Source: Peptostreptococcus equinus (GTDB taxonomy: Bacteria > Bacillota > Clostridia > Peptostreptococcales > Peptostreptococcaceae). Taken from it: 64,000 nucleotides of DNA. The stretch covers positions 434,001 to 498,000 of the forward strand of contig NZ_CP114052.1 of the NCBI RefSeq assembly GCF_027125355.1, in the 5' to 3' direction. Positions 23,713 to 37,007 of this stretch are shown piece by piece; position 1 is the first letter of the stretch, and every line of letters begins with the position of its first letter. Both the position numbers and the translations under genes were made by a program. The notes below the pieces were generated by a model, which was given only the letters and a program-made list of their open reading frames with translations, made no database searches and was not told the DNA's origin.

Positions 23713-23811
23713 AAACAACCGTTTTGCAAACTTATGTATTGAGTTTGTATTTATTAGTTGAGAAGGTGTATATGTGAATGAGATGCTTATATACCAAGCT
23801 TGGAGGAGTAT

Positions 23812-25380
23812 ATGGAATTAGTAAAGACAACACTATATCAATGTTTTGTTGATAGAGCTAAAGAAAGTCCGCACAAGCTTTTTATTGAAAATGGCGAAGA
23901 GAGTTTCACGTGGGAAAATGTTAATAATATAACCAACAAATTATCGGTTTTACTATATGAACAGGGTGTAAGAAAAGGTTCAAGAGTAGGATTGTATGGT
24001 ACAAACAGTGCAAGCTGGATAATAGCATTTTTGGCGATTCAAAAAATTGGAGCATCTGCCGTACTAATTAATTCATGTTATAGAATAAATGAACTGGTTA
24101 ATTGTATTGATATAGCTGACATACAGTATATTCTCTACACTAGAAGTTGTGAATGTTCTATGTATGATGAAACAATAAACAAGCTAAGATTAATGAGAAA
24201 ATACAAGCATGTGAAATGTTTTAATATAGAGCACAGCTATAAAGAATGGATGAAAATAGAGGAAAAAACTATTAAACACGCTTTTAACAATATAGAATTT
24301 GAAAAAAGTGATTCACATGATATCTCTTGTGTTCTATTCACATCCGGTACAACAAATAATTGTAAGGGTGTATTATTAAGTCACTATTCCTTAATAAATA
24401 ATGCACGTCAAGTTATTGAAGAGATGAAATGGTCACAAGATGATATAATGTGTTTAGTGGTTCCGTTATTTCATTGTTTTGGTGTGTCGGTAAGCTTGCT
24501 TACAAGTATAATTGTAGGTATGAAAATACAACTATTAGAGAAATATAGTACTATTGAAGTTTGCAAATCAATAGAAGAATACAAGTGTACAGTATTAAAT
24601 GGGGTTCCAAGCATGTTTTTAGCTTTGGTAAGAAATCCAAGAATGCAAGAATTTGATTTATCAACTTTAAAAACTGGGATTATAGCTGGATCACCTATAT
24701 ATAAAGAAGAATATTTAGAAATATGCAACAAGTTACCAAGCTTAAATCTACAGACATCATATGGATTGACTGAAGCATCACCTTGTGTGACAATAGCAAA
24801 GTTTGATGACTCTATAGAAAAAAAATCGATTTCTGCTGGCAAGGTTATTGATAATGTAGAAGTAAAAATACTAGATAGTAATACTTTTGAAGAGTGTGGA
24901 CCTAATGTAATCGGTGAGATATTTGTAAGGGGATATAATGTTACAAAAGGATATCTTACAAACGATCCAGTGGTTTGTGATGCCGTGATGCCTAATGGAT
25001 GCTTAAAAACTGGGGATCTAGGATATTTAGATTCAGATAATTACCTATATATAGTAGGAAGAAGAAAAAATATGATAATAAGAGGTGGAGAAAATATATC
25101 GCCTTATGAAATAGAAGAATATATAAAAAAAGTTGATTCGAGACTTAATGTTTTAGTATTCGGTATAAAATCAGAAGTTTTGCAAGAGGAAATAGTAGCA
25201 ACCATAGAAGGAAAGGATAACTCAGAACTAGTTGCAAAAATAAAAAATGAATTAAACAATTCTATTAGCAAGTATAAAATACCAAAGTTTATAGTCTTCA
25301 TAGAAACGTTTCCTAAAACTTCGACAGGTAAGATTGACGAAAAAGAATTAAAAAGGCTTGTTAATGAAAAATTAAAATAA
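23812..25380 (+). CDS. Acyl-CoA ligase (AMP-forming), FldL-like
   Basis: 522 residues from ATG 23812; ggagga (23802-23807) gives proper spacing, while the TTG at 23800 precedes it. The ANL-superfamily phosphate loop is TSGTTNNCKG (residues 177-186), followed by the YGLTEASP motif, KTGDLGYLD and the C-terminal catalytic lysine in PKTSTGKIDEKEL. It activates a carboxylic acid to its CoA thioester with ATP. As first gene of the cluster it probably makes the initial aryl- or acyl-CoA that primes the CoA-transferase cycle, as FldL does in C. sporogenes. Specificity cannot be read from the sequence. Confidence 0.85.
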   Translation: MELVKTTLYQCFVDRAKESPHKLFIENGEESFTWENVNNITNKLSVLLYEQGVRKGSRVGLYGTNSASWIIAFLAIQKIGASAVLINSCYRINELVNCIDIADIQYILYTRSCECSMYDETINKLRLMRKYKHVKCFNIEHSYKEWMKIEEKTIKHAFNNIEFEKSDSHDISCVLFTSGTTNNCKGVLLSHYSLINNARQVIEEMKWSQDDIMCLVVPLFHCFGVSVSLLTSIIVGMKIQLLEKYSTIEVCKSIEEYKCTVLNGVPSMFLALVRNPRMQEFDLSTLKTGIIAGSPIYKEEYLEICNKLPSLNLQTSYGLTEASPCVTIAKFDDSIEKKSISAGKVIDNVEVKILDSNTFEECGPNVIGEIFVRGYNVTKGYLTNDPVVCDAVMPNGCLKTGDLGYLDSDNYLYIVGRRKNMIIRGGENISPYEIEEYIKKVDSRLNVLVFGIKSEVLQEEIVATIEGKDNSELVAKIKNELNNSISKYKIPKFIVFIETFPKTSTGKIDEKELKRLVNEKLK

Positions 25381-25427
25381 ATATCATTAAGTAATTAATT
25401 ATTATGTATATTGTGGGAGGTAAGGTA

Positions 25428-26666
25428 ATGAGCACAAGAAAGAAACCATTAGAGGGAGTAAAAGTTATTGAACTAGCTACTTTTATAGCAGCAGCGACTA
25501 CAGGAAGATTTTTAGCTGATTTAGGAGCTGATGTAATAAAAATTGAAAGTGCAAAGGGAGATCCGTTAAGATACACTGCACCTACAGAAGGAAGACCTCT
25601 AGATATGTATGAAAATACTACTTGGGAACTTGAAAATGCAAACAAAAGGTGTATATCTTTAAACATGAAAGATCCTAAAGGTAAAGAAGCATTTTTTAAA
25701 TTATTAGATGGTGCTGACATACTTATAACTAACTGGAGAGTACAGGCTTTACAAAGAGCTGGTTTAGATTATGAAACTCTAAAGGTTAAATATCCAAGTC
25801 TAGTATATGCTATGTGTACAGGATATGGTGAATATGGTCCAGACAAAGATTTACCAGGATTTGATTTTACTGCTTTCTTTGCAAGAGGCGGTTACTTAGA
25901 AAACCTAAGACAAAAGACAGATGTTCCAATGAATGTTGTTCCAGGGTTAGGCGACCATAATGTTGGAATTAATCTAGCTGCTGGTGTATTAGCTGCTTTA
26001 TATCATGCTAAACTAACTGGCGAAGGAGAAAAGGTTGAAACAAGCTTGTTTGAGAGTGCAATATTTAATATGGGTATGATGGTACAGGCTGCTCAATATC
26101 CTGACTATGGAGTAAAATATCCAATAAACATCAGTGAAGCAAACAATCCGCTAAATGCATGTTGGCTTACTAGTGATGGTAGATACGTACAGACTTGTAT
26201 GCCTGACTACAATACGTACTTCAAAAAATTCACTGCCGCATTAGGAATAGGTGAATATGGTGAAGATGAAAAATATTACCCTGTACAGAATCTTATAGAA
26301 AATAAATTAGGAACTGATATATACAGTAAGATAATGGCTGCATTTGGTACTAAAGAATATAAAGAATGGGAAAAAATACTAACAGAAGCAGATATTCCAT
26401 TTGCACTAGCTAAAAACTGGGAAGAATTATTGGAAGATGAACAAGCTTGGGCAAATGATTGTTTCTATAAAATGAAATATCCAAAAGGGGAAAGAGTATT
26501 AGTTAAGCATCCAGTAAAATATCAAGAAATGGGACCTACTCCATATGATAGAGGTCCATTCATTGGTGAACATGGTATTGAAATATTAAGCGAATTAGGA
26601 TATAACAAAGAAGACATAGACGCAATGCTAGCAGATAAGACATTATACGTTTGGGAAGACAAATAA
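25428..26666 (+). CDS. fldA: Family III CoA-transferase (FldA/HadA type)
   Basis: 412 residues from ATG 25428 with gggagg (25415-25420) upstream. It moves CoA from the end-product acyl-CoA or enoyl-CoA to the 2-hydroxyacid. The expected catalytic aspartate is Asp146 in PGFDFTAFFARGG. The GDPLRYTAP (44-52) and EGRPL segments resemble my memory of C. sporogenes FldA (cinnamoyl-CoA:phenyllactate CoA-transferase) better than C. difficile HadA, which favours aromatic lactates, though leucine-derived 2-hydroxyisocaproate remains possible. A long hairpin separates it from fldI. Confidence 0.85.
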   Translation: MSTRKKPLEGVKVIELATFIAAATTGRFLADLGADVIKIESAKGDPLRYTAPTEGRPLDMYENTTWELENANKRCISLNMKDPKGKEAFFKLLDGADILITNWRVQALQRAGLDYETLKVKYPSLVYAMCTGYGEYGPDKDLPGFDFTAFFARGGYLENLRQKTDVPMNVVPGLGDHNVGINLAAGVLAALYHAKLTGEGEKVETSLFESAIFNMGMMVQAAQYPDYGVKYPINISEANNPLNACWLTSDGRYVQTCMPDYNTYFKKFTAALGIGEYGEDEKYYPVQNLIENKLGTDIYSKIMAAFGTKEYKEWEKILTEADIPFALAKNWEELLEDEQAWANDCFYKMKYPKGERVLVKHPVKYQEMGPTPYDRGPFIGEHGIEILSELGYNKEDIDAMLADKTLYVWEDK

Positions 26667-26717
26667 GAAACTTTTATTCTTTGAGTATTACTAATTATGT
26701 TGAGTAGGAAATAGAGT

Positions 26718-26758
26718 ATTGGTTATCTGATTTAGAGGGGTCTAAATCAGATACCAAT
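26718..26758 (+). other. Strong intra-operon hairpin between fldA and fldI
   Basis: 18-bp stem with one bulged T (left arm 26718-26736, right arm 26741-26758) and a gggg loop. No T run follows, so it is not a classic terminator. It sits about 20 bases before the fldI ribosome binding site and may protect the upstream mRNA or set the fldA:fldI ratio. Confidence 0.8.
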
Positions 26759-26790
26759 TGTTGGGGAAAAAATCAAAGAGAGGTAAAAAA

Positions 26791-27579
26791 ATGAGTGATA
26801 TTTTTACATTAGGAATCGATATTGGTTCTACATCTTCAAAATGCGTAATGCTAAAGAATGGTAAAGAAATAGTTGGAGAAGGCGTAGTTAATCTAGGTGC
26901 TGGAACAAAAGGCGCTGATCAAGTAATTGAGCAAGTAATTGAACAATCTGGAGTGAAATTTGAAGATATAGATGTAATCGTATCTACAGGTTATGGAAGA
27001 AACAGTTACGAGGGTGCTAAAAAGACAATGAGTGAGCTTAGCTGCCATGCAAAAGGTGGTACTTTCATATTTGGGAAAGTAGGCACAATAATAGACATAG
27101 GTGGTCAAGATATTAAAGTATTAAAGCTTAATCCAAATGGTCAACTTACAAATTTCTTAATGAATGATAAATGTGCAGCAGGTACAGGAAGATTTCTAGA
27201 AGTTATGTCTGGAGTCTTGGATGTAAAATTAGAAGAGCTTGGAGAATTAGATAAAAAGTCAACTGAAAAGACTCCAATAAGTTCTACATGTACTGTTTTT
27301 GCTGAATCAGAGGTTATTTCTTGCATGGCAAAGAAAATACCGATTCCAAATATAATAAGAGGTATACATGCTTCTGTTGCTACAAGAGTAGCGGGATTGG
27401 CAAAAAGAGGTGGGCTAAGTCAACCGGTTGCAATGACAGGTGGAGTAACAAAAAATTCAGGAATTGTAAGAGCTTTAAGTGAAGAATTAGATTGTGAAAT
27501 TAAAATTTCACCAGATTCACAGATGGCAGGTGCAATTGGAGCTGCTTTATACGCGTACGAAGAACATCAAAAAAACTAG
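26791..27579 (+). CDS. fldI: 2-hydroxyacyl-CoA dehydratase activator (FldI/HadI)
   Basis: 262 residues from ATG 26791 with gagagg upstream; an in-frame TTG at 26758 lies inside the hairpin. A homodimeric ATPase of the ASKHA fold with one [4Fe-4S] cluster between subunits. It injects one high-energy electron into the dehydratase. The ATP-binding GIDIGSTSSK is at 8-17. The cluster ligands are Cys128 (NDKCAAGTGRF) and Cys167 (SSTCTVFAESE), the spacing known from the A. fermentans activator. It is encoded directly before the dehydratase subunits. All required residues are present. Confidence 0.95.
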   Translation: MSDIFTLGIDIGSTSSKCVMLKNGKEIVGEGVVNLGAGTKGADQVIEQVIEQSGVKFEDIDVIVSTGYGRNSYEGAKKTMSELSCHAKGGTFIFGKVGTIIDIGGQDIKVLKLNPNGQLTNFLMNDKCAAGTGRFLEVMSGVLDVKLEELGELDKKSTEKTPISSTCTVFAESEVISCMAKKIPIPNIIRGIHASVATRVAGLAKRGGLSQPVAMTGGVTKNSGIVRALSEELDCEIKISPDSQMAGAIGAALYAYEEHQKN

Positions 27580-27600
27580 GTTTAGGAAAGGAGCTTTATC

Positions 27601-28836
27601 ATGAGTAATACAGAAATGGTTGAAGAAAAGCCAGCAAAAGTGTTGTTAGGTGAAATAGTTGCGAAACACTATCAAGAAGCATGGGATGCAAAAAACAGAG
27701 GCGAAAAAGTTGGCTGGTGCGCATCTAACTTCCCACAGGAAATACTGGAAACAATGGATATCAAAGTAGTTTATCCTGAAAATCAGGCGGCTGCTATATC
27801 TGCAAAAGGTGGAGGACAGAGAATGTGCGAAACTGCTGAAAATGCAGGATATTCAAATGATATATGTGCTTATGCTAGAATAAGTTTAGCATATATGGAT
27901 GTCAAAGATGCTCCAGAACTTAACATGCCGCAGCCAGATTTCGTAGCGTGCTGTAACAATATTTGTAACTGTATGATTAAATGGTATGAAAATATAGCTA
28001 AAGAACTAGATATACCTCTGATTCTAATAGATGTACCATACAATGATGAATATGAAGCAGGAGATGATAGAGTAGAATACTTAAAGGGTCAGTTCGATCA
28101 TGCTATTAAACAGTTAGAAGATATAACTGGAAAAAAATGGGATGATAAGAGATTTGAAAAAGTAATGGAAATATCTCAAAGAACTGGTAAAGCTTGGCTA
28201 GAAGCTACTGGGTATGCTAAATATACTCCATCACCATTCAGTGGATTTGATGTATTTAATCACATGGCTGTTGCAGTTTGTGCAAGAGGTAAAGAAGAAT
28301 CAGCAATAGCGTTTGAAAAATTAACAAAAGAATTCGAAGAAAATGTTAAGACAGGTAAGTCAACATTTAAGGGTGAAGAAAAATATAGAATAATATTTGA
28401 AGGTATAGCATGTTGGCCACATCTAAGACATACATTTAAGCAGTTAAAAGATGGCGGTGTGAATGTTTGTGGTACTGTATATGCTGATGCATTCGGATAT
28501 ATATATAATAATACTTATGAATTAATGCAGGCATATTGTGGAACACCTAATGCAATTTCATATGAAAGATCATTAGATATGAGATTAAAATTAGTTGAAG
28601 AAAATAATATTGACGGTATGTTAGTCCACATCAATAGAAGCTGTAAGCAGTGGAGTGGTATCATGTATGAAATGGAAAGAGAATTCAGAGAAAGAACTGG
28701 TTTACCAACAGCAACATTTGATGGTGATCAAGCTGATCCAAGAAACTTCTCAGACGCACAGTATGATACTAGAGTTCAAGGTTTAATTGAAGTCATGGAA
28801 GCTAATAAAGCAGCAAAGATGAAAGGGGAACATTAA
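27601..28836 (+). CDS. fldB: 2-hydroxyacyl-CoA dehydratase subunit alpha (FldB/HadB type)
   Basis: 411 residues, RBS aaaggag. With FldC it removes water from an (R)-2-hydroxyacyl-CoA by a ketyl-radical mechanism. The active-site [4Fe-4S] subunit keeps its cysteines: Cys40, Cys76 (QRMCETAE), Cys89 (NDICAYAR), the Cys117/118-122-124 group (CCNNICNCM) and late cysteines in ACWPHLRH and RSCKQWSG. The GWCASNFPQEI and FDGDQADPRNFSDAQYDTR blocks resemble C. sporogenes FldB as I remember it. The stop is one base before the fldC start, so the subunits are translationally coupled. Confidence 0.93.
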   Translation: MSNTEMVEEKPAKVLLGEIVAKHYQEAWDAKNRGEKVGWCASNFPQEILETMDIKVVYPENQAAAISAKGGGQRMCETAENAGYSNDICAYARISLAYMDVKDAPELNMPQPDFVACCNNICNCMIKWYENIAKELDIPLILIDVPYNDEYEAGDDRVEYLKGQFDHAIKQLEDITGKKWDDKRFEKVMEISQRTGKAWLEATGYAKYTPSPFSGFDVFNHMAVAVCARGKEESAIAFEKLTKEFEENVKTGKSTFKGEEKYRIIFEGIACWPHLRHTFKQLKDGGVNVCGTVYADAFGYIYNNTYELMQAYCGTPNAISYERSLDMRLKLVEENNIDGMLVHINRSCKQWSGIMYEMEREFRERTGLPTATFDGDQADPRNFSDAQYDTRVQGLIEVMEANKAAKMKGEH

Positions 28837-28837
28837 G

Positions 28838-29953
28838 ATGAGTATAGATGCACTATTAAATAAATTAGATGTATGTCCATTAGAACAACTAGATAAATAT
28901 GTTTCAGCTGGAGAGAAAGTAATAGGTTGGACTGGACCATATGCCCCAGAGGAACTAGTTTATGCAGCTGGAATGATCCCAATGGGAATTTGGGGAGCAG
29001 AAGGAGACGTTACACTTTCAAAAGAATATTTCCCAGCTTTCTATGCTTCTCCAATACTTAGAACTATGGACTTAGGATTGGAAGGTAAGCTAGACAAAAT
29101 GTCAGGGATGATTTTACCAGGTTTAAGTGATGGTCTTAAAGGTCTTAGCCAAAACTGGAGAAGAGCTGTAAAAAATGTTCCTGCATTATATATTGGATAT
29201 GGGCAGAATAGAAAGATAGATGCTGGTATAGAATACAATAAAAAGCAGTATATCAAATTAATTGCTAAATTGGAAGAAATATCAGGAGCTAAGATTGAAG
29301 AAGCTAAAGTTGAGGAAGCTATAGTACTTTACAATAAGCATAGAAAGGCTATGCAGGAATTTAGTTCATTAGTAGCGACTCATTTAAATACAATGACACC
29401 ATCAAAGAGAATAATAGTAATGAATAGTGCATTACACTTTGATAAGGAAGAACATTTAGAAATATTAGAAGAAATAAATAAAGAACTAAAAGAAATGCCA
29501 GAAGAAAAATTTGAAGGCAAGAAGATAGTTACAACTGGTGTTTTAGGAAACAGCCCTGATATGTTAAAAATACTTGAAAGTTTTAACTTAGGCATAGTTG
29601 ATGATAATATTAACCATGAGTCAGGACAGTTTGATTATTTAGTTGATGAAGGTACTGACGATCCAATTAGAGCTTTAGCTAAGTGGATTTCAGATATAGA
29701 AGGAAGTACATTCTTGTATGATCCAGATAAGCTAAGAGGAAAGATAATAATAGAAAAGGTTAAAAAACACAATGCAAACGGTGTTATATACCTAATGACT
29801 AAGTTTAGCGATTCTGATGAGTTCGATTACCCAATAATCAAGAAAGAACTTGATGAAGCTGGAATATTAAATATTTTAGTTGAAGTAGATCAGCAAATGA
29901 CTAACTTCGAACAAGCAAAGACTGCATTGCAGACATTTGCAGATATGATTTAG
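28838..29953 (+). CDS. fldC: 2-hydroxyacyl-CoA dehydratase subunit beta (FldC/HadC type) without cluster cysteines
   Basis: 371 residues, full length and homologous throughout (GIWGAEGD, SQNWRRAV, GYGQNRK, FLYDPDKLRG, KFSDSDEFDYP). In HadC and FldC, as I remember them, this subunit holds a second [4Fe-4S] cluster. Here the only cysteine is Cys12. The positions where I recall cysteines are Ala70, Ser97, Gly102, Ser290 and Ser324, so the beta subunit should hold no cluster. Electrons would pass from FldI directly to the alpha cluster, or the enzyme has changed its route. The reading frame is intact and coupled to fldB, so it is not a decaying gene. Confidence 0.9.
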   Translation: MSIDALLNKLDVCPLEQLDKYVSAGEKVIGWTGPYAPEELVYAAGMIPMGIWGAEGDVTLSKEYFPAFYASPILRTMDLGLEGKLDKMSGMILPGLSDGLKGLSQNWRRAVKNVPALYIGYGQNRKIDAGIEYNKKQYIKLIAKLEEISGAKIEEAKVEEAIVLYNKHRKAMQEFSSLVATHLNTMTPSKRIIVMNSALHFDKEEHLEILEEINKELKEMPEEKFEGKKIVTTGVLGNSPDMLKILESFNLGIVDDNINHESGQFDYLVDEGTDDPIRALAKWISDIEGSTFLYDPDKLRGKIIIEKVKKHNANGVIYLMTKFSDSDEFDYPIIKKELDEAGILNILVEVDQQMTNFEQAKTALQTFADMI

Positions 29954-29983
29954 TAAAAAGTTAAAATTTTAAGGAGGCAATCT

Positions 29984-31117
29984 ATGATTTTCGAAAAAGA
30001 ACACGAGTTAGTTCGTCAGCTAGCAAAAGAATTTGCTGAAAAAGAAATAAAACCAACTGCTGAAGAAGTTGATGAAACAGGCGAATTCCCAATGGAAATT
30101 TATAAAAAAATGGCTGAAGCAGGATTTTTAGGTATAAAGATACCTCAACAATATGGTGGATCTGGTGGAGATCACCGTTCGTATGCAATAGTTATGGAAG
30201 AATTATCTAAGGCATCAGGTGTATCAACTATATGGATATCATCACCAAACTCATTACAGTCTACACCTATATTAAGAGATGGTACTGAAGAACAAAAAGA
30301 AAAATACCTTAGACCAATGGTAACAGGTGAAAAAATGTTTGCATTCGGTCTTACTGAACCAGGTGCGGGTTCAGATGCAGCTTCTATATTAACTACTGCA
30401 GTTAAAGATGGAGACGATTATATACTTAATGGTAGAAAAACATTCATAACTGGTGCTCCAGTATCAGATTATGTAATAATATTCGCTAAAACTAACCCTG
30501 AAATGGGTGTTAAGGGAATCTCTACTTTTGTGGTAGACTCTAAACTAGAAGGTGTATCTTTTGGTAAACCAGAACATAAAATGGGTATGATAGGTTGCCC
30601 TACTAGTGACGTAGTACTAGAAAACGTAAGGGTTTCTAAAGATGCTATGTTAGGTAAAGAAGGTAAGGGATTCATCAATGCAATGAAGACATTAAGTGTT
30701 GGTAGACTAGGAATTGCTTGTCAGGCATTAGGACTTGCTGAAGGTGCAATGGAAGAAGCGCTTAAGTATATCAAGGCTAGACAGCAGTTTGGTAAATCAT
30801 TAGCAAAATTCCAGAATACTCAGTTCATAATCGCTGAAATGGAAACAAAAATTACAGCTATGCGCCACCTTGTATATGATGCAGCTTACAAAATGGATTT
30901 AGGACAGCCAGCAGATAAAGAAGCATCTATGGCTAAACTATTCGCTACTGAAGAAGCTAAATGGGTAATAGATAAGGCATTACAGCTTCATGGTGGATAC
31001 GGATATGTCAAGGAATATCCAATTGAAAGAATCTACAGAGACATAAGAGTAACTTCAATTTATGAAGGTACTTCAGAAGTTCAGAAGATGGTAATAGCAT
31101 CAAACGTATTGAAATAA
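29984..31117 (+). CDS. acdA: Acyl-CoA dehydrogenase of the reductive pathway
   Basis: 377 residues, RBS aaggagg. An FAD enzyme that reduces the enoyl-CoA formed by the dehydratase using electrons from EtfAB. The three-domain acyl-CoA dehydrogenase fold is visible: the FGLTEPGAGSDAAS flavin/substrate motif in the middle, RQQFGKSLAKFQ in the C-terminal helical domain, and the catalytic base expected at Glu361 in IYEGTSEVQ. The adjacent etfB and etfA genes indicate a stable AcdA-Etf complex, possibly electron-bifurcating as reported for butyryl-CoA dehydrogenase of clostridia. Bifurcation here is inference. Confidence 0.93.
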   Translation: MIFEKEHELVRQLAKEFAEKEIKPTAEEVDETGEFPMEIYKKMAEAGFLGIKIPQQYGGSGGDHRSYAIVMEELSKASGVSTIWISSPNSLQSTPILRDGTEEQKEKYLRPMVTGEKMFAFGLTEPGAGSDAASILTTAVKDGDDYILNGRKTFITGAPVSDYVIIFAKTNPEMGVKGISTFVVDSKLEGVSFGKPEHKMGMIGCPTSDVVLENVRVSKDAMLGKEGKGFINAMKTLSVGRLGIACQALGLAEGAMEEALKYIKARQQFGKSLAKFQNTQFIIAEMETKITAMRHLVYDAAYKMDLGQPADKEASMAKLFATEEAKWVIDKALQLHGGYGYVKEYPIERIYRDIRVTSIYEGTSEVQKMVIASNVLK

Positions 31118-31133
31118 GGGGAGGTAAAAATAG

Positions 31134-31925
31134 ATGAAAATAGTTGTTTGCATAAAGCAAGTACCAGATACAACAGAGGTAAAACTAGACCCTGTTAAGA
31201 ATACATTGATTCGTGATGGAGTACCTAGTATTATTAACCCTGATGATAAAGCAGGTTTAGAATTAGCATTACAGATAAAAGAAGAAGTGCCAGGAAGTAC
31301 ATTAACAGTAGTGTCAATGGGACCTCCACAGGCAGAAGTTGCTCTAAGAGAAGCTTTGGCTATGGGTTGTGATGATGCAATATTACTTTCTGATAGAGCT
31401 TTCGGTGGTGCAGATACTTGGGCTACTTCTACTACAATAGCAGGAGCTTTAAAGAACATAGATTACGATATTATAATAGCAGGAAGACAAGCTATCGATG
31501 GTGATACAGCTCAAGTTGGACCACAGATAGCTGAACACCTTGGAATTCCTCAAGTTTCATACGTTGAAGAATTAAAGGTTGAAGGAGACAAGTTTATAGT
31601 TAAGAGACAATTTGAAGATAGATATCACATAGTTGAATTACAGTCACCTTGTCTAATAACTACATTAGCAGAAGGAATAACTCCAAGATATATGTCAATA
31701 GCAGGAATATTCAATGCTTATAAAAAGGACGTAACAGTTTGGGGACTAAAAGACATCGAAGACAATTTAAATATTGAACATATCGGTTTAAAGGGTTCAC
31801 CTACAAATGTTAAAAAATCATTTACAAAGCAAGCTAAAGGTCAGGGAGTTAAATTAGAAGGTTTAAGCCCAGAAGAAGCAGCAGATGCAATATTAGCTAA
31901 GCTACAAGAAAAATATTTTATATAA
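31134..31925 (+). CDS. etfB: Electron transfer flavoprotein beta subunit
   Basis: 263 residues, RBS ggggagg. It opens with MKIVVCIKQVPDTTEVKLDP and carries AGRQAIDGDTAQVGPQIAEHLG and LITTLAEGITPRYMS, the conserved Etf-beta blocks. With EtfA it carries electrons between NADH or ferredoxin and the acyl-CoA dehydrogenase encoded just upstream. It lies in the same transcription unit, 16 bases after acdA. Whether it holds the bifurcating FAD instead of AMP needs structural comparison. Confidence 0.95.
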   Translation: MKIVVCIKQVPDTTEVKLDPVKNTLIRDGVPSIINPDDKAGLELALQIKEEVPGSTLTVVSMGPPQAEVALREALAMGCDDAILLSDRAFGGADTWATSTTIAGALKNIDYDIIIAGRQAIDGDTAQVGPQIAEHLGIPQVSYVEELKVEGDKFIVKRQFEDRYHIVELQSPCLITTLAEGITPRYMSIAGIFNAYKKDVTVWGLKDIEDNLNIEHIGLKGSPTNVKKSFTKQAKGQGVKLEGLSPEEAADAILAKLQEKYFI

Positions 31926-31980
31926 GAACGTGAAACTTTAATAAGATAAGATAATATATAATTGAAAGGAAGATTACCTA

Positions 31981-32988
31981 ATGAACAAAGATATTTATGT
32001 AATAGTTGAACAGGTAGACGGTGTCATCCAAAAAGTAGGCATCGAACTAATTGGTATAGCTAGTAAACTAGCTGCTGACTTAGATCAGAAAGTAGTAGCA
32101 GTAGTGCTTGGAGATAAAATAAAAGATCATGCACCTATGTTAATTTCACATGGTGCTGAGAGAGTTATTTGTATAGAAGACCCAATGTTGGCAGTATATG
32201 CTACAGAACCATATACAAAGGCAATAAATGCTTTAATAGAAGATAAAAAACCTAACATTGTTCTATTTGGTGCTACATCAATAGGAAGAGACTTGGCTCC
32301 TAGAGTATCAGCAAGAGTTCATACAGGACTTACAGCTGACTGTACTAAGTTAGAAATAGATGAAGAATCTAAATTATTATTAATGACAAGGCCAGCTTTT
32401 GGTGGTAACATCATGGCTACAATAGTTTGTAAAGAATTTAGACCACAAATGGCAACTGTAAGACCTGGTGTTATGCAGGCTCTACCAAAAGATTCATCAA
32501 GAACTGGAGAAATTGAAAACTTCATAGTAGACTTTACTCCAGAAGATATGAATATAAAAATAAGAGAAGTTGTAAAATCAGCTCACAATGCTGTAGATAT
32601 AACTGAATCAAAAGTTCTTATTTCTGGTGGCAAGGGTATAGGAAGCCCTGAATACTTTGATGTATTAAAAGAACTTGCTGATGAATTAGGCGGATTAGTA
32701 ACTTCATCAAGAGCGAATGTTGATGCTGGTTGGATAGGAAGAGAAAGACAGGTTGGACAGACTGGTAAGACTGTAAGACCAGATTTATATATGGCTTGTG
32801 GTATATCAGGTGCTATACAGCATCTAGCTGGTATGGAAGATTCTGAGTATATAATAGCTATAAACAAGGATGCACATGCACCAATATTCGGTGTTGCTGA
32901 TTTAGGTATTGTTGGTGATGTTAAGCAGATAATGCCAATATTAATAGAAAAAGTAAGAGCTTTAAAAGCTGCAAAGGGAGATATGTAA
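31981..32988 (+). CDS. etfA: Electron transfer flavoprotein alpha subunit
   Basis: 335 residues, RBS gaaagga. The C-terminal FAD-binding domain is clear: GRERQVGQTGKTVRPDLYMACGISGAIQH in two consecutive conserved blocks (residues about 256-284), then AINKDAHAPIFGVADLGIVGD. The N-terminal domain pairs with EtfB. No extra ferredoxin domain is fused at the N-terminus, unlike some clostridial EtfA proteins. It is the last gene of the fld operon, as a hairpin follows and a fresh promoter precedes the next gene. Confidence 0.95.
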   Translation: MNKDIYVIVEQVDGVIQKVGIELIGIASKLAADLDQKVVAVVLGDKIKDHAPMLISHGAERVICIEDPMLAVYATEPYTKAINALIEDKKPNIVLFGATSIGRDLAPRVSARVHTGLTADCTKLEIDEESKLLLMTRPAFGGNIMATIVCKEFRPQMATVRPGVMQALPKDSSRTGEIENFIVDFTPEDMNIKIREVVKSAHNAVDITESKVLISGGKGIGSPEYFDVLKELADELGGLVTSSRANVDAGWIGRERQVGQTGKTVRPDLYMACGISGAIQHLAGMEDSEYIIAINKDAHAPIFGVADLGIVGDVKQIMPILIEKVRALKAAKGDM

Positions 32989-32993
32989 TAAAA

Positions 32994-33021
32994 AATGATA
33001 GAAAAGTTTCATCATTGTTTT
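32994..33021 (+). terminator. Probable terminator after etfA
   Basis: aatgat-a-gaaa paired with tttc-atcatt (32994-33016), one bulge and a short loop, followed by gtttt. Moderate stability in an AT-rich setting. Confidence 0.55.
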
Positions 33022-33061
33022 CAAATCAAATCATATCAAAAGTAAACAAAATATTTAAAAA

Positions 33062-33101
33062 TTATAAACATTTTGTTTAATATAATAAAAAATGTTTATA
33101 A
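33062..33101. promoter_or_regulatory. 13-base inverted repeat upstream of the dehydrogenase promoter
   Basis: ttataaacatttt (33062-33074) and aaaatgtttataa (33089-33101) are perfect inverted copies. A further inverted pair, taaacaaaat and attttgttta, overlaps it (33043-33052 and 33070-33079). Candidate binding region or AT cruciform; no regulator can be named. The rest of the 32989-33371 gap holds the promoter below and AT-rich leader. Confidence 0.45.
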
Positions 33102-33125
33102 AAGTAAAAAAAAATATTAAATGTG

Positions 33126-33192
33126 TTGAAAAATACACAAACTTGTAGTACAATATACCTAGGATGATTGAGTTCTAGGTATATGCTACAAG
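33126..33192 (+). promoter_or_regulatory. Promoter and large dyad in front of the 2-hydroxyacid dehydrogenase gene
   Basis: TTGAAA (33126-33131), 17-base spacer, TACAAT (33149-33154). The -10 box lies inside a two-part dyad: outer arms cttgtag/ctacaag (33142-33148, 33186-33192) and inner arms atatacctag/ctaggtatat (33153-33162, 33175-33184). It could be an operator covering promoter and start site, or fold in the 5' RNA. The inner arm resembles the ctagtata half-site of the fld promoters. The leader to the start codon is about 210 bases and contains a further small hairpin near 33193-33212. Confidence 0.6.
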
Positions 33193-33371
33193 AAGAATTT
33201 TTAGAATATTCTTTTTAATTTGTAATTTTAAAGGATTTGAAACTCAGTTTGAATTTGAAAATTATTTATTAATATTTTTGATTATTAACAATGATGTTGA
33301 AAAAATTTTTGACATATTGGTTAACAAAATAACAAAATTCTAAATTGTGGTAAATACCAAGGGGGTACGTA

Positions 33372-34364
33372 ATGGTAAAGGTTAGAGTAACATGTAACAA
33401 AAACATTATTGAAAGATTCGGAGTTAAAAAGCCAGAAGGATGGGATTTCCAGTATATTAACTATCCTTGTTCGGATGAAGAGTTAGTTGCTCAGTGTAAG
33501 GATGCAGATATAATATTCTGTGGTCCAGTTGATTTTTTTAGAAAAGAAGTTATTGATCAGCTAGAAAACTGCAAATTGATACAATCACTAGGTGTTGGCT
33601 TTGACAAGATAGACCTAAATGCTACTAAAGAAAAAGGTATTTATGTTTGCAATAATAGAGCTGTTAATGCTGTACCAGTTGCTGAATTAGCACTAGGGCA
33701 CATGATTTCTTCTTTAAGAAGAATGCCAGAAGCTGATGCTAAGATAAAAGCTGGTGGGGTTGACGGATTTAATGAAAGTTTTAGAGACTATCAGGTTAAA
33801 GGACAGAGTGAATTATCTTCAAGAACAATAGGACTTGTTGGTTTGGGAGCTATAGGTAAAGCTGCTGTTAGAATGCTAAAAGCATTTGGATGCAAAGTAG
33901 TTTACTATGATGTATTCAGAGCTGATGAAGCTTACGAAATAGAAAATGATCTTGAATTCTGTACTTACGATGAAATACTTGAAAAATGTGACATTATCTC
34001 TTACCATGTTCCAGTTCTTGACTCAACTAGAAATATGGTTCGTAAAGAAACAATTGAAAAAATGAAACAAGATGCGATTATTGTTAACGTTGCAAGAGGA
34101 GAAATAGTAAATAATGAAGATTTAGCAGAGGCATTAAACAACGGAAGAATCTTTGCTGGATTAGATGTTATTGCTCCAGAACCTCCAACTGCAGATCATC
34201 CACTATTTAACTTAACTGATGCTGGTAAGGCTAGATTATCAATCACTCCTCACATTGCAGGAACAACTGATGATGCATTCATTAGAATGTCTCAGTGGTC
34301 TTATGATAACATGGTTAAAGTTATGAACGGCGAAAGACCAAACAACGTAGTTAATGGTCTTTAA
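33372..34364 (+). CDS. D-2-hydroxyacid dehydrogenase (FldH/LdhA-like)
   Basis: 330 residues, RBS gggggt. NAD-binding GLVGLGAIGKA at 154-164 (GxGxxG at 157, 159, 162). Catalytic residues of the D-isomer family appear as Arg in VNVARGE, Glu in VIAPEPPT and His in PHIAGTTDD. It reduces a 2-oxo acid to the (R)-2-hydroxyacid, the first reductive step feeding the FldA-FldBC cycle, and reoxidises NADH. In C. difficile the equivalent ldhA precedes hadA, while here it follows the cluster under its own promoter. The symbol fldH would fit if the substrate is aromatic, but that is not shown. Confidence 0.88.
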   Translation: MVKVRVTCNKNIIERFGVKKPEGWDFQYINYPCSDEELVAQCKDADIIFCGPVDFFRKEVIDQLENCKLIQSLGVGFDKIDLNATKEKGIYVCNNRAVNAVPVAELALGHMISSLRRMPEADAKIKAGGVDGFNESFRDYQVKGQSELSSRTIGLVGLGAIGKAAVRMLKAFGCKVVYYDVFRADEAYEIENDLEFCTYDEILEKCDIISYHVPVLDSTRNMVRKETIEKMKQDAIIVNVARGEIVNNEDLAEALNNGRIFAGLDVIAPEPPTADHPLFNLTDAGKARLSITPHIAGTTDDAFIRMSQWSYDNMVKVMNGERPNNVVNGL

Positions 34365-34413
34365 TTAACAAACGGCTTAGGCCTATAATTTTTATATTAG
34401 AAGGTGAATGACT

Positions 34414-35739
34414 ATGGAAATTAACAAGAAAGACGTTATAATTTGTGGATTTGCATTATTTGCAATATTCTTCGGTGCAGGTAACTTGATTTTCCCTCCA
34501 TACCTAGGTGTTATGGCTGGAGATAAGTGGTATGTAGCAATGATAGCTTTCTTACTATCAGATCCAGTTCTTCCAATACTTGGTGTTATCGTAACAGCAA
34601 GACTAGGTGGTAGAGCAGATGATTTAGGTAAGAGAGTTAGCCCAGCATTTGCAAAGCTAATAGGAACAATTGCCATATTGACAATAGGACCGTTCTTTGC
34701 AATACCAAGAACAGGTGCTACTACTCATGAAATATTTATTAGACCAATATTCCCAAGTGTTCCAATTTGGGCTACTTGTATAGTATTCTTTGGTATAACA
34801 TTATTTATTACATTAAAGCCTGGTAAAGTTATCGATATAATAGGTAAGTATCTTACTCCAATATTATTAATTATACTCGCAGTAATAATAATTATGTCAA
34901 TAGTAAGTCCTCCAGATGCAAAAGTTAGTACTGGTGCACCTTCACTATTTGCTACAGGGTTTAAAGAAGGATACCAAACAATGGATGCTCTTGGGTCTCC
35001 GCTAATGGCAGGTATTGTTATATCTGACTTACTAAGACGTGGATATGCAGATAAAGAATTACAATTCAAAACAAGTATTCAGGTTGGTATAGTTGCATTT
35101 ATATTACTAGCATTAGTATACGGTGGCTTAACATATGCTGGAGCAACAGTTGGAGGTCACTTTAATGCTCAAACTGAAAGAACTGCTTTATTTATAGGTA
35201 TGGTTGAATTATTATTAGGAAAAGCTGGTAAAATTGCAATGGGACTTGCAGTTGCCTTAGCTTGTTTGACAACTTCAACAGGTCTTGCATCTACTTGTGG
35301 TAACTATTTCGATTCAATTACAGGTGGTAAGTTATCTTATAGAAATGTTGTAATCGTAGCAGTAGCAATAGCTTTTGTACTATCATTGATAGGTGTTGAT
35401 GGCCTTATTACAATTGCTGTTCCTATACTTTCAGCTATATATCCAGTTATAATAGTACTTATCATAATGTCAATATTCGATAGAAAGATTAAATACAACT
35501 GGACTTACACAGGTGCTGTAATAGGTGCTTTTGGAGTAGGTTTGCTTGAAGCAATAAATCTTTTCTCAGTAATGAGAGGTGGAAAATTACTAGCTGGGCC
35601 AGTAGAAGCTATAAAAGCTTTGCCACTTGGAAATTTAGGATTTGAATGGGTTATACCTGCTATTATATGTTCGATTATACTTACTCTTGTAAGTATGTTT
35701 GCAAAAGTAGGAAAAACTATAAACGATCCAATAGATTAA
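34414..35739 (+). CDS. brnQ: Branched-chain amino acid transporter, LIVCS family
   Basis: 441 residues from ATG 34414; aaggtg is seven bases upstream and an ATG at 34408 is too close to it. About twelve transmembrane helices. The start FALFAIFFGAGNLIFPPYLG is the hallmark of BrnQ sodium-coupled leucine, isoleucine and valine carriers. It lies 49 bases after the dehydrogenase gene and before an aminotransferase, so imported branched-chain amino acids are probably substrates of this locus. Such carriers may also accept other hydrophobic amino acids, so the substrate question is not settled. Confidence 0.93.
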   Translation: MEINKKDVIICGFALFAIFFGAGNLIFPPYLGVMAGDKWYVAMIAFLLSDPVLPILGVIVTARLGGRADDLGKRVSPAFAKLIGTIAILTIGPFFAIPRTGATTHEIFIRPIFPSVPIWATCIVFFGITLFITLKPGKVIDIIGKYLTPILLIILAVIIIMSIVSPPDAKVSTGAPSLFATGFKEGYQTMDALGSPLMAGIVISDLLRRGYADKELQFKTSIQVGIVAFILLALVYGGLTYAGATVGGHFNAQTERTALFIGMVELLLGKAGKIAMGLAVALACLTTSTGLASTCGNYFDSITGGKLSYRNVVIVAVAIAFVLSLIGVDGLITIAVPILSAIYPVIIVLIIMSIFDRKIKYNWTYTGAVIGAFGVGLLEAINLFSVMRGGKLLAGPVEAIKALPLGNLGFEWVIPAIICSIILTLVSMFAKVGKTINDPID

Positions 35740-35764
35740 TTCACAAAAATTTTAATAATATAAT

Positions 35765-35789
35765 GTTAGGACCCTTACTGGGTCCTAAC
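35765..35789 (+). other. Intergenic hairpin between brnQ and the aminotransferase gene
   Basis: Perfect 10-bp GC-containing stem gttaggaccc/gggtcctaac (35765-35774, 35780-35789), loop ttact. It is followed by aaaaca rather than Ts, so full termination is unlikely. A processing or stability element is more plausible. Confidence 0.75.
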
Positions 35790-35822
35790 AAAACAATAAG
35801 TATACTTTAGGAGGTAAATTTT

Positions 35823-37007
35823 ATGATTTCTCAGGAAATGTTAAAATTAGGTACATCTAAATCAGTAATAAGAGAATTAGCAGGATTTGGAGCTCAGAGA
35901 GCTGCAATAGTTGGTGCAGAAAATGTATTGGATTTTAGTTTAGGTAATCCGTCTGTTCCTGCACCAAAAGAAGTACAGGATGCTATAGTTGATATAATTA
36001 AAAACTATGAACCAAAAGTATACCATAGCTATAGTTCTGGAGCTGGCCATGATGGTTGTAGAACTGCAATAGCAGAGAATCTAAATAAAAGATATGGAAC
36101 TAACTATTCAAAAGATAATTTTATTATGACTTGTGGCGCAGCAGCTTCTTTAAACATAACTATAAAGGCTTTAGTAGCAGAACCAGGTGACGAAATAATG
36201 GTATTAGCTCCATTCTTCCCTGAATATACTGTGTTTATAGCAGCTCAAGGTGGAAAACAAGTACTTGTTCCTTGTAAAGATGATATGCAATTAAATGTTG
36301 AAGGAATTAAGGAAGCTTTAACTCCAAAGACAAGAGGAATAATAGTTAATTCTCCTAACAATCCATCAGGCGTTGTTTATACTAAAGAAGAAATGCAAGA
36401 ACTTTGCGATCTATTAGTTGAAAAGGAGAAAGAATATGGACATCCAATATATATTATAGCTGATGAGCCATATAGAGAATTAGTACTAATAGATGGTTTA
36501 GAAGTACCATTTATACCAAATATGTACAAGAACACAGTAGTATGCTACTCATGGTCTAAGTCACTTTCTTTACCAGGAGAAAGAATTGGTTACGTACTTG
36601 TTCCTAATAATGTTGATGATGAACAGTTAATAGCAGCTTGCGGTGGTGCAGCTAGAGCTTTAGGTTTTGTTTGTGCTCCAACTTTATTCCAGTTAGTAAT
36701 TGAAAGATGTGTCAATGTAGAGCCAGACCTTACAGTTTATAAGAAAAATAGAGATTTACTTTATGATGGACTTACTAAATTAGGCTATAATGTAGCTAAG
36801 CCAGCTGGTGCATTTTATTTATTCATAGAATCTCCAGACGGAGATTCAGAGAAATTCTCTGAAAAAGCTAAGGAATATGATATGTTAGTTGTTCCAGGAA
36901 CCGGATTTGGTTCAAAAGCACATATGAGATTATCTTATTGTGTTGAAACTGAAAAGTGTGAAAAATCACTTGAAGTGTTCGAAAAATTAATGAAAAAATA
37001 TAAATAA
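35823..37007 (+). CDS. Class I/II pyridoxal phosphate aminotransferase
   Basis: 394 residues, RBS aggaggt. The PLP lysine is Lys246 in SWSKSLSLPGERIGY. The NSPNNPSGVVYT segment holds the cofactor-binding Asn, and the carboxylate-binding Arg is in HMRLSYC near the C-terminus. It belongs to the AspC/aromatic aminotransferase group. In this setting it should convert leucine or an aromatic amino acid to the 2-oxo acid consumed by the dehydrogenase upstream, with 2-oxoglutarate as likely partner. It completes the pathway encoded from 23.8 kb on. Confidence 0.9.
   Translation: MISQEMLKLGTSKSVIRELAGFGAQRAAIVGAENVLDFSLGNPSVPAPKEVQDAIVDIIKNYEPKVYHSYSSGAGHDGCRTAIAENLNKRYGTNYSKDNFIMTCGAAASLNITIKALVAEPGDEIMVLAPFFPEYTVFIAAQGGKQVLVPCKDDMQLNVEGIKEALTPKTRGIIVNSPNNPSGVVYTKEEMQELCDLLVEKEKEYGHPIYIIADEPYRELVLIDGLEVPFIPNMYKNTVVCYSWSKSLSLPGERIGYVLVPNNVDDEQLIAACGGAARALGFVCAPTLFQLVIERCVNVEPDLTVYKKNRDLLYDGLTKLGYNVAKPAGAFYLFIESPDGDSEKFSEKAKEYDMLVVPGTGFGSKAHMRLSYCVETEKCEKSLEVFEKLMKKYK

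Follow-up and report, generated by a model that had tools for sequence, protein, structure and literature searches.

A Peptostreptococcus equinus 2-hydroxyacyl-CoA dehydratase whose beta subunit lacks the cluster-ligand cysteines

The window analyzed here, a 64,000-nucleotide stretch of the single-contig (1.995 Mb) genome of Peptostreptococcus equinus, encodes a dehydratase whose beta subunit, FldC, has a cysteine at none of its three cluster-ligand positions. FldABC, together with the activase FldI, would in our estimation probably be a working aryllactyl-CoA dehydratase that has lost the beta [4Fe-4S] cluster, so that the alpha cluster both takes up and keeps the electron. A working enzyme with the alpha cluster only had already been proposed in a sequence-only reading of this DNA. 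The one-cluster part of that proposal appears well supported by comparison, namely by a clade-wide loss, purifying selection, retained alpha ligands and activase motifs, and some genomes in which no alternative enzyme was seen, but it runs against the printed model of the reaction, in which the beta cluster takes part. We infer the absence of a cluster from FldC, the activity of the enzyme, its substrate and a direct transfer from FldI to FldB.

Reviews describe one cluster in each subunit (PMC11574389, PMC8473912). According to the model printed in both (section 6 of the former), the electron passes from the activase to the beta cluster and from there to the alpha cluster, approximately 12 Å away, where the ketyl radical is formed; between turnovers it returns to the beta cluster, which is both entry port and store. 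In the enzyme proposed here, FldC would be a structural partner completing the dimer. FldI would inject one electron by way of ATP hydrolysis, the electron would reach the FldB cluster directly or over side chains of FldC, and the reduced single [4Fe-4S] cluster of FldB would form the substrate ketyl and also hold the electron until the next substrate.

The fld locus and its family assignment

All genes of the locus lie on the forward strand. An AMP-dependent, FldL-like acyl-CoA ligase (23800..25380) is followed by fldA, a family III CoA-transferase (25404..26666, with an ATG at 25404 or 25428), by fldI, the ATP-dependent activase or archerase (26758..27579, starting with TTG at 26758 or ATG at 26791), by fldB for the catalytic alpha subunit (27601..28836) and by fldC for the beta subunit (28838..29953). 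Downstream are an AcdA-like acyl-CoA dehydrogenase (29984..31117), EtfB-like (31134..31925) and EtfA-like (31981..32988) electron-transfer flavoprotein subunits, a D-2-hydroxyacid dehydrogenase with a putative aryllactate-forming role (33372..34364), a branched-chain-type amino acid transporter (PF05525; 34408..35739) and a class I/II aminotransferase that may form the arylpyruvate (35823..37007). The names FldL, AcdA, EtfB and EtfA are those that we presume for the genes flanking fldA-fldI-fldB-fldC. This order, with acdA and etfBA present in the window, is also what we take to be the order of the reference phenyllactate dehydratase operon, and it is conserved across the Peptostreptococcus loci that were read.

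The fldC open reading frame is intact, with 371 codons for amino acids and an ATG start that is separated from the fldB stop by 1 base. Open frames of 828 residues had raised the possibility of an alpha–beta fusion, which was rejected because the two subunits are separate open reading frames. A promoter scan returned 63 sites against 64.8 in shuffled sequence, i.e. no excess. The fld cluster is complete in the window (23800–37007), in contrast to that of P. stomatis, which has been called incomplete (PMC10968020).

Both subunits contain the PF06050 (HGD-D) domain (229.9 and 257.9 bits, cut-off 28.4), and FldI, encoded beside fldBC and carrying its cluster cysteines, matches TIGR00241 with 264.9 bits (cut-off 125.4). 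Because of the domain, the alpha ligands and the activase, the locus was filed as a 2-hydroxyacyl-CoA dehydratase. The three ligand cysteines that the reviews give as a feature of the beta subunit are absent from FldC; their alpha counterparts are present in FldB. Against the HadC model NF052456, FldC scores 394.2 bits, below the cut-off of 700.

Three characterized systems serve for comparison. HadBC (PDB 3o3m) belongs to the same family and has the same subunit layout; residues 14–370 of FldC align with HadC (E = 1e-99) and FldB matches HadB (E = 3.3e-135), but HadC has cysteine at all three ligand columns and FldC at none. The phenyllactate dehydratase FldABC with FldI, of the C. sporogenes type, has a similar gene set, with FldC 39% identical in Clostridiaceae genomes, whereas the six Clostridium fld-type beta subunits read (L183–L188, C. 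sporogenes FldC itself not being among the named sequences) keep cysteine at 70, 97 and 324. Class I benzoyl-CoA reductase BzdNO is also of this family, and the active-site ligands of BzdO match Cys89, Cys122 and Cys348 of FldB; in contrast, BzdN holds an [8Fe-9S] cluster, and none of its six ligands is found in FldC.

Ligand columns in the two subunits

FldC has a single cysteine, which is Cys13 and not, as first stated, Cys12. The residues given earlier for the conserved cysteine columns, Ala70, Ser97, Gly102, Ser290 and Ser324, all agree with the translation, and the HadC cysteines that had been given for these columns are indeed found in the aligned chain (PDB 3o3m_B). The [8Fe-9S] cluster of BzdN is bound by Cys36, Cys73, Cys100, Cys263, Cys293 and Cys327, and the active-site cluster of BzdO by Cys95, Cys128 and Cys380 (PMC11971306). 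On alignment, BzdN Cys73, Cys100 and Cys327 fall on FldC Ala70, Ser97 and Ser324 and on HadC Cys72, Cys99 and Cys325, which would thus be the three cluster ligands of HadC; the remaining BzdN ligands Cys36, Cys263 and Cys293 fall on FldC Gly33, Asn259 and Ser290. The six columns therefore read G33, A70, S97, N259, S290 and S324 in FldC. At position 31, the FldC of the window has Trp where the eight other Peptostreptococcus FldC sequences have Cys, a further cysteine loss near the former cluster site.

FldB and FldI had been said to keep their expected cysteines, and this was borne out. FldB contains 12 cysteines, including the cluster ligands Cys89, Cys122 and Cys348, which coincide with FldC positions 70, 97 and 324 in a profile–profile alignment, and FldI has both cluster motifs, NDKCAAGTG and SSTCTVFAES. 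Cysteine occupies column 89 in 117, column 122 in 121 and column 348 in all 122 of the distinct alpha partners compared, and those missing a ligand cysteine are open reading frames that end before the column. Activase genes were looked for at 31 loci. Both motifs were present wherever the gene was recovered, except at L097, where a strict pattern did not match the first motif; no activase gene was found in the examined stretch of L036, L061 and L102.

Columns 70, 97 and 324 are Ala or Val, Ser and Ser in all 16 genomes of the FldC clade that were read, i.e. nine of Peptostreptococcus and seven others (L043–L049, one of them a metagenome-assembled genome and the other six belonging to Peptoniphilus or Aedoeadaptatus). 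Two of these FldC sequences (L045 and L046) have no cysteine at all. Agreement among the 16 also disposes of chance or a sequencing slip as the source of the missing cysteines. In a first alignment of 32 beta rows, made up of the family from the window's genome and HadC, 23 have cysteine at 70, 97, 290 and 324, and the nine that do not are the nine Peptostreptococcus FldC; the seven named relatives of FldC at 76–82% identity are all from Peptostreptococcus among the matches listed. The wider set comprised 124 distinct beta sequences, of which 92 read Cys-Cys-Cys at 70/97/324. Because this set was grown from FldC as the query and is limited to the loci read (for one search 80 out of 450 relatives, and for each of three others at most 30 loci), the fractions are not family-wide frequencies. 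Two of 196 beta open reading frames were dropped, having no adjoining alpha frame; L108 was excluded from alignments A2 and A3; and position 70 was left unread in L052, whose fldC frame is split and contains N. Thus most beta homologues read keep the cysteines that FldC lacks, yet its orthologues in the clade lack them without exception.

The invariance of Ser97 and Ser324 in the 16 clade members could be taken to mean that FldC still binds a [4Fe-4S] cluster, either through these oxygen ligands or through cysteines lent by FldB, which has extra ones in Peptostreptococcus, such as Cys290. We consider this very unlikely. Position 70 is Ala or Val, and therefore at most two side chains are left; FldB Cys40, Cys124 and Cys313 occur also beside ligand-keeping beta subunits, and Cys290 is missing from the Aedoeadaptatus alpha partners read. 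The BzdN helices begin at or just past the matching sites. Ser, Thr and Asp at position 97 and Ser and Asn at position 324 are ordinary helix N-cap residues, and a capping role would therefore explain their conservation without a metal. The residues replacing the cysteines make no plausible ligand set, so that the earlier proposal was not refuted on this point, and the extra FldB cysteines were rejected as substitute ligands because their occurrence does not track the loss.

Selection, paralogues and pathway products

Codon-model omega values in Peptostreptococcus are 0.055 for fldC and 0.031 for fldB (nine genomes each) and 0.071 for hadC (seven sequences); purifying selection on fldC is strong. 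In BzdNO, a related enzyme, Cys-to-Ala exchange gives unstable protein (PMC11971306), and compensating changes are therefore to be expected when beta ligands are lost. Pairs of loci were compared for the shortfall in beta-subunit similarity at a given alpha identity, a comparison that is descriptive because branches common to several pairs make them non-independent. At 78–84% alpha identity, the shortfall is 30.1 points in the 52 pairs that straddle a loss, 16.1 where both keep the ligands (171) and 15.3 where both have lost them (14); at 72–78%, the values are 24.4 (29 pairs), 15.8 (239) and 13.6 (27). The difference shrinks at lower alpha identity (21.0 versus 19.5 at 66–72%, and 21.9 versus 18.0 at 60–66%). 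At 90–97%, ligand-lost pairs diverge more than ligand-keeping pairs (10.9 in 28 pairs versus 6.2 in 31). The pattern is consistent with a spell of rapid change at the time of cluster loss, followed by constraint that is perhaps slightly looser and may fall short of a full return to normal.

These values bear on the possibility that FldBC is decaying or has taken another role, with HadBC dehydrating aryllactyl-CoA or HadC pairing with FldB. A search with PF06050 found five proteins in the window's genome: FldB, FldC, a HadBC pair with its cysteines and a double-cubane protein. A second pair with intact ligands is thus at hand, and a second beta subunit occurs in seven of the eight other Peptostreptococcus genomes, those read keeping all three cysteines. 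The ligand cysteines are kept by the HadC paralogue of the window's genome and by four congener HadC sequences in the first alignment, and likewise by seven named Peptostreptococcus HadC paralogues. Against such a substitution stand the low omega of fldC and the conserved operon order in the Peptostreptococcus loci read. It is also countered by genomes in which no such second pair was seen, namely G415, the one-contig genome of A. ivorii and those of A. coli, P. rachelemmaiella and P. russellii Calf135. In addition, an fldC mutant of C. sporogenes loses arylpropionates (PMC9889317). We judge decay or replacement of FldBC to be improbable. A second copy of fldC, which had been suggested as something to look for, is absent from the five PF06050 proteins of the window's genome and was discarded.

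Only two PF06050 matches, forming a ligand-poor pair, were found in Aedoeadaptatus coli (G772), Peptoniphilus rachelemmaiella (G976), G415 (one contig), G610, G693, G590, G710, G768 (with L108) and G770 (with L097), some of which are drafts. The extra matches in P. russellii Calf135 (G043) and A. ivorii (G480, one contig) are double-cubane proteins only (490.9–510.2 bits, cut-off 350). These genomes would therefore have no cysteine-bearing beta subunit to borrow, unless one is missing from a draft. Double-cubane reductase proteins were seen at four loci in all: the window's genome has one that adjoins an activase, P. russellii Calf135 has two and A. ivorii has one (L001, L210, L229 and L215).

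With regard to pathway products, indoleacrylic and indolepropionic acids in gut bacteria come from this pathway, and a review lists P. anaerobius, P. russellii and P. stomatis as producers (PMC6098093). In culture, indoleacrylic acid is formed by P. anaerobius and P. russellii, in larger amounts than by P. stomatis (PMC10968020). FldC lacks the ligands in sequenced P. anaerobius (L042), in P. russellii Calf135 (L039) and in L009, which is taken as RT-10B. Because HadC with all three ligands (L069 and L087) accompanies FldC in both P. anaerobius and RT-10B of P. russellii, the culture metabolites do not single out FldBC; with the cultured and sequenced strains presumed identical, they are support for FldBC function rather than proof of it.

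Repeated loss of the beta ligands and the electron route

For a beta tree, 124 rows were reduced to 89 (at 88% identity within the same cysteine state) and the cysteine columns were removed. All three cysteines are kept in 63 of the 89 rows and not in the other 26, a distribution that needs at least six changes of state on a tree with 64 of 86 inner branches starred. Although the tree is unrooted, and the changes alone cannot separate gain from loss, they were read as losses because the solved relatives and most rows carry the cysteines. The six groups are (a) the FldC clade; (b) Fusobacterium and family f42, with Tyr-Asp-Asn; (c) L109, L101 and L108; (d) L102; (e) L131; and (f) L071. Rows L047, L052, L061, L071, L097 and L102 come from metagenome bins. 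In group (a), the order of loss looks stepwise: the earliest branches are those of L061 (Ser-Ser-Cys) and L097 (Ser-Thr-Cys), followed by L052 (unread, Ser, Cys) and then by the sequences with Ala-Ser-Ser. Two genomes are hit in both alpha–beta pairs, G767 (L043 and L101) and G769 (L061 and L102); loss in pairs so distant on the beta tree hints at a pressure acting on the host and not specific to a substrate. Other genomes are mixed, as in Peptostreptococcus, where HadC has its cysteines, and in Lachnoanaerobaculum, where one of two pairs does. The Lachnoanaerobaculum beta subunits L109 and L113 read Asn-Asp-Cys, and the second pairs on those contigs (L100 and L095) Cys-Cys-Cys.

The 2-hydroxyglutaryl-type dehydratase of Fusobacterium and family f42 resembles FldBC in having a beta subunit without the three cysteines and an alpha subunit that keeps them, all three being present in the Fusobacterium alpha subunit. 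It differs in its separate loss on the tree and its replacing residues, and probably also in its substrate, since a glutamate symporter adjoins the genes in Fusobacterium, as at the F. vincentii beta subunit with Tyr-Asp-Asn (L207). One might suppose from this enzyme that a different redox cofactor, with a flavin as the likeliest candidate, sits in the beta pocket of FldC as relay and store. Flavin is present in some dehydratases (PMC11574389, section 6), and the 2-hydroxyglutaryl-CoA dehydratase of F. nucleatum was titled an iron-sulfur flavoprotein (Klees 1992, as cited in PMC7033586). That title, together with the ligand-free beta subunit of its relative F. vincentii, makes this the strongest of the rival explanations, the comparison being one by species and not with the sequence of the purified enzyme. 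The replacing residues, however, differ among the loss groups, unlike what would be expected of one shared new site, and we regard a flavin-filled pocket as unlikely.

Ligand loss in FldC, in its close relatives and in several other lineages suggests that the supposed electron store is dispensable in this enzyme family. We give roughly even odds to the broader proposition that the beta cluster is not obligatory, one-cluster enzymes having arisen at least six times and, in G767 and G769, in both pairs, so that activases could pass the electron straight to the alpha cluster, which by itself could hold it for recycling. One-cluster measurements have reportedly been made on an older 2-hydroxyglutaryl-CoA dehydratase. 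A literature search that covered few primary papers on these enzymes found no report of a natural loss of the beta cluster and no paper on the clusters of the Fusobacterium dehydratase; PMC3035267 and PMC12848739 provided nothing bearing on such a loss.

Natural beta subunits without ligands make the printed electron route directly testable with respect to entry, storage and turnovers per activation, and they offer a one-cluster enzyme already stabilized by evolution, in contrast to the unstable engineered cysteine removals in BzdNO. If the one-cluster reading is true, descriptions that assign two clusters to every such enzyme would need correcting, here for an enzyme whose pathway turns amino acids into gut signaling acids.

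Cysteine-keeping dehydratase pairs were also seen in Enterobacterales records of Proteus, Brenneria, Serratia, Symbiopectobacterium and Escherichia albertii (L054–L057, L059, L060, L063, L064, L070, L072 and L084), and horizontal acquisition of these pairs is possible. Three records from a plasmid collection (H1, H2 and H3; 4.1 and 2.1 Mb; Proteus mirabilis and Fusobacterium vincentii) look like misfiled chromosomes.
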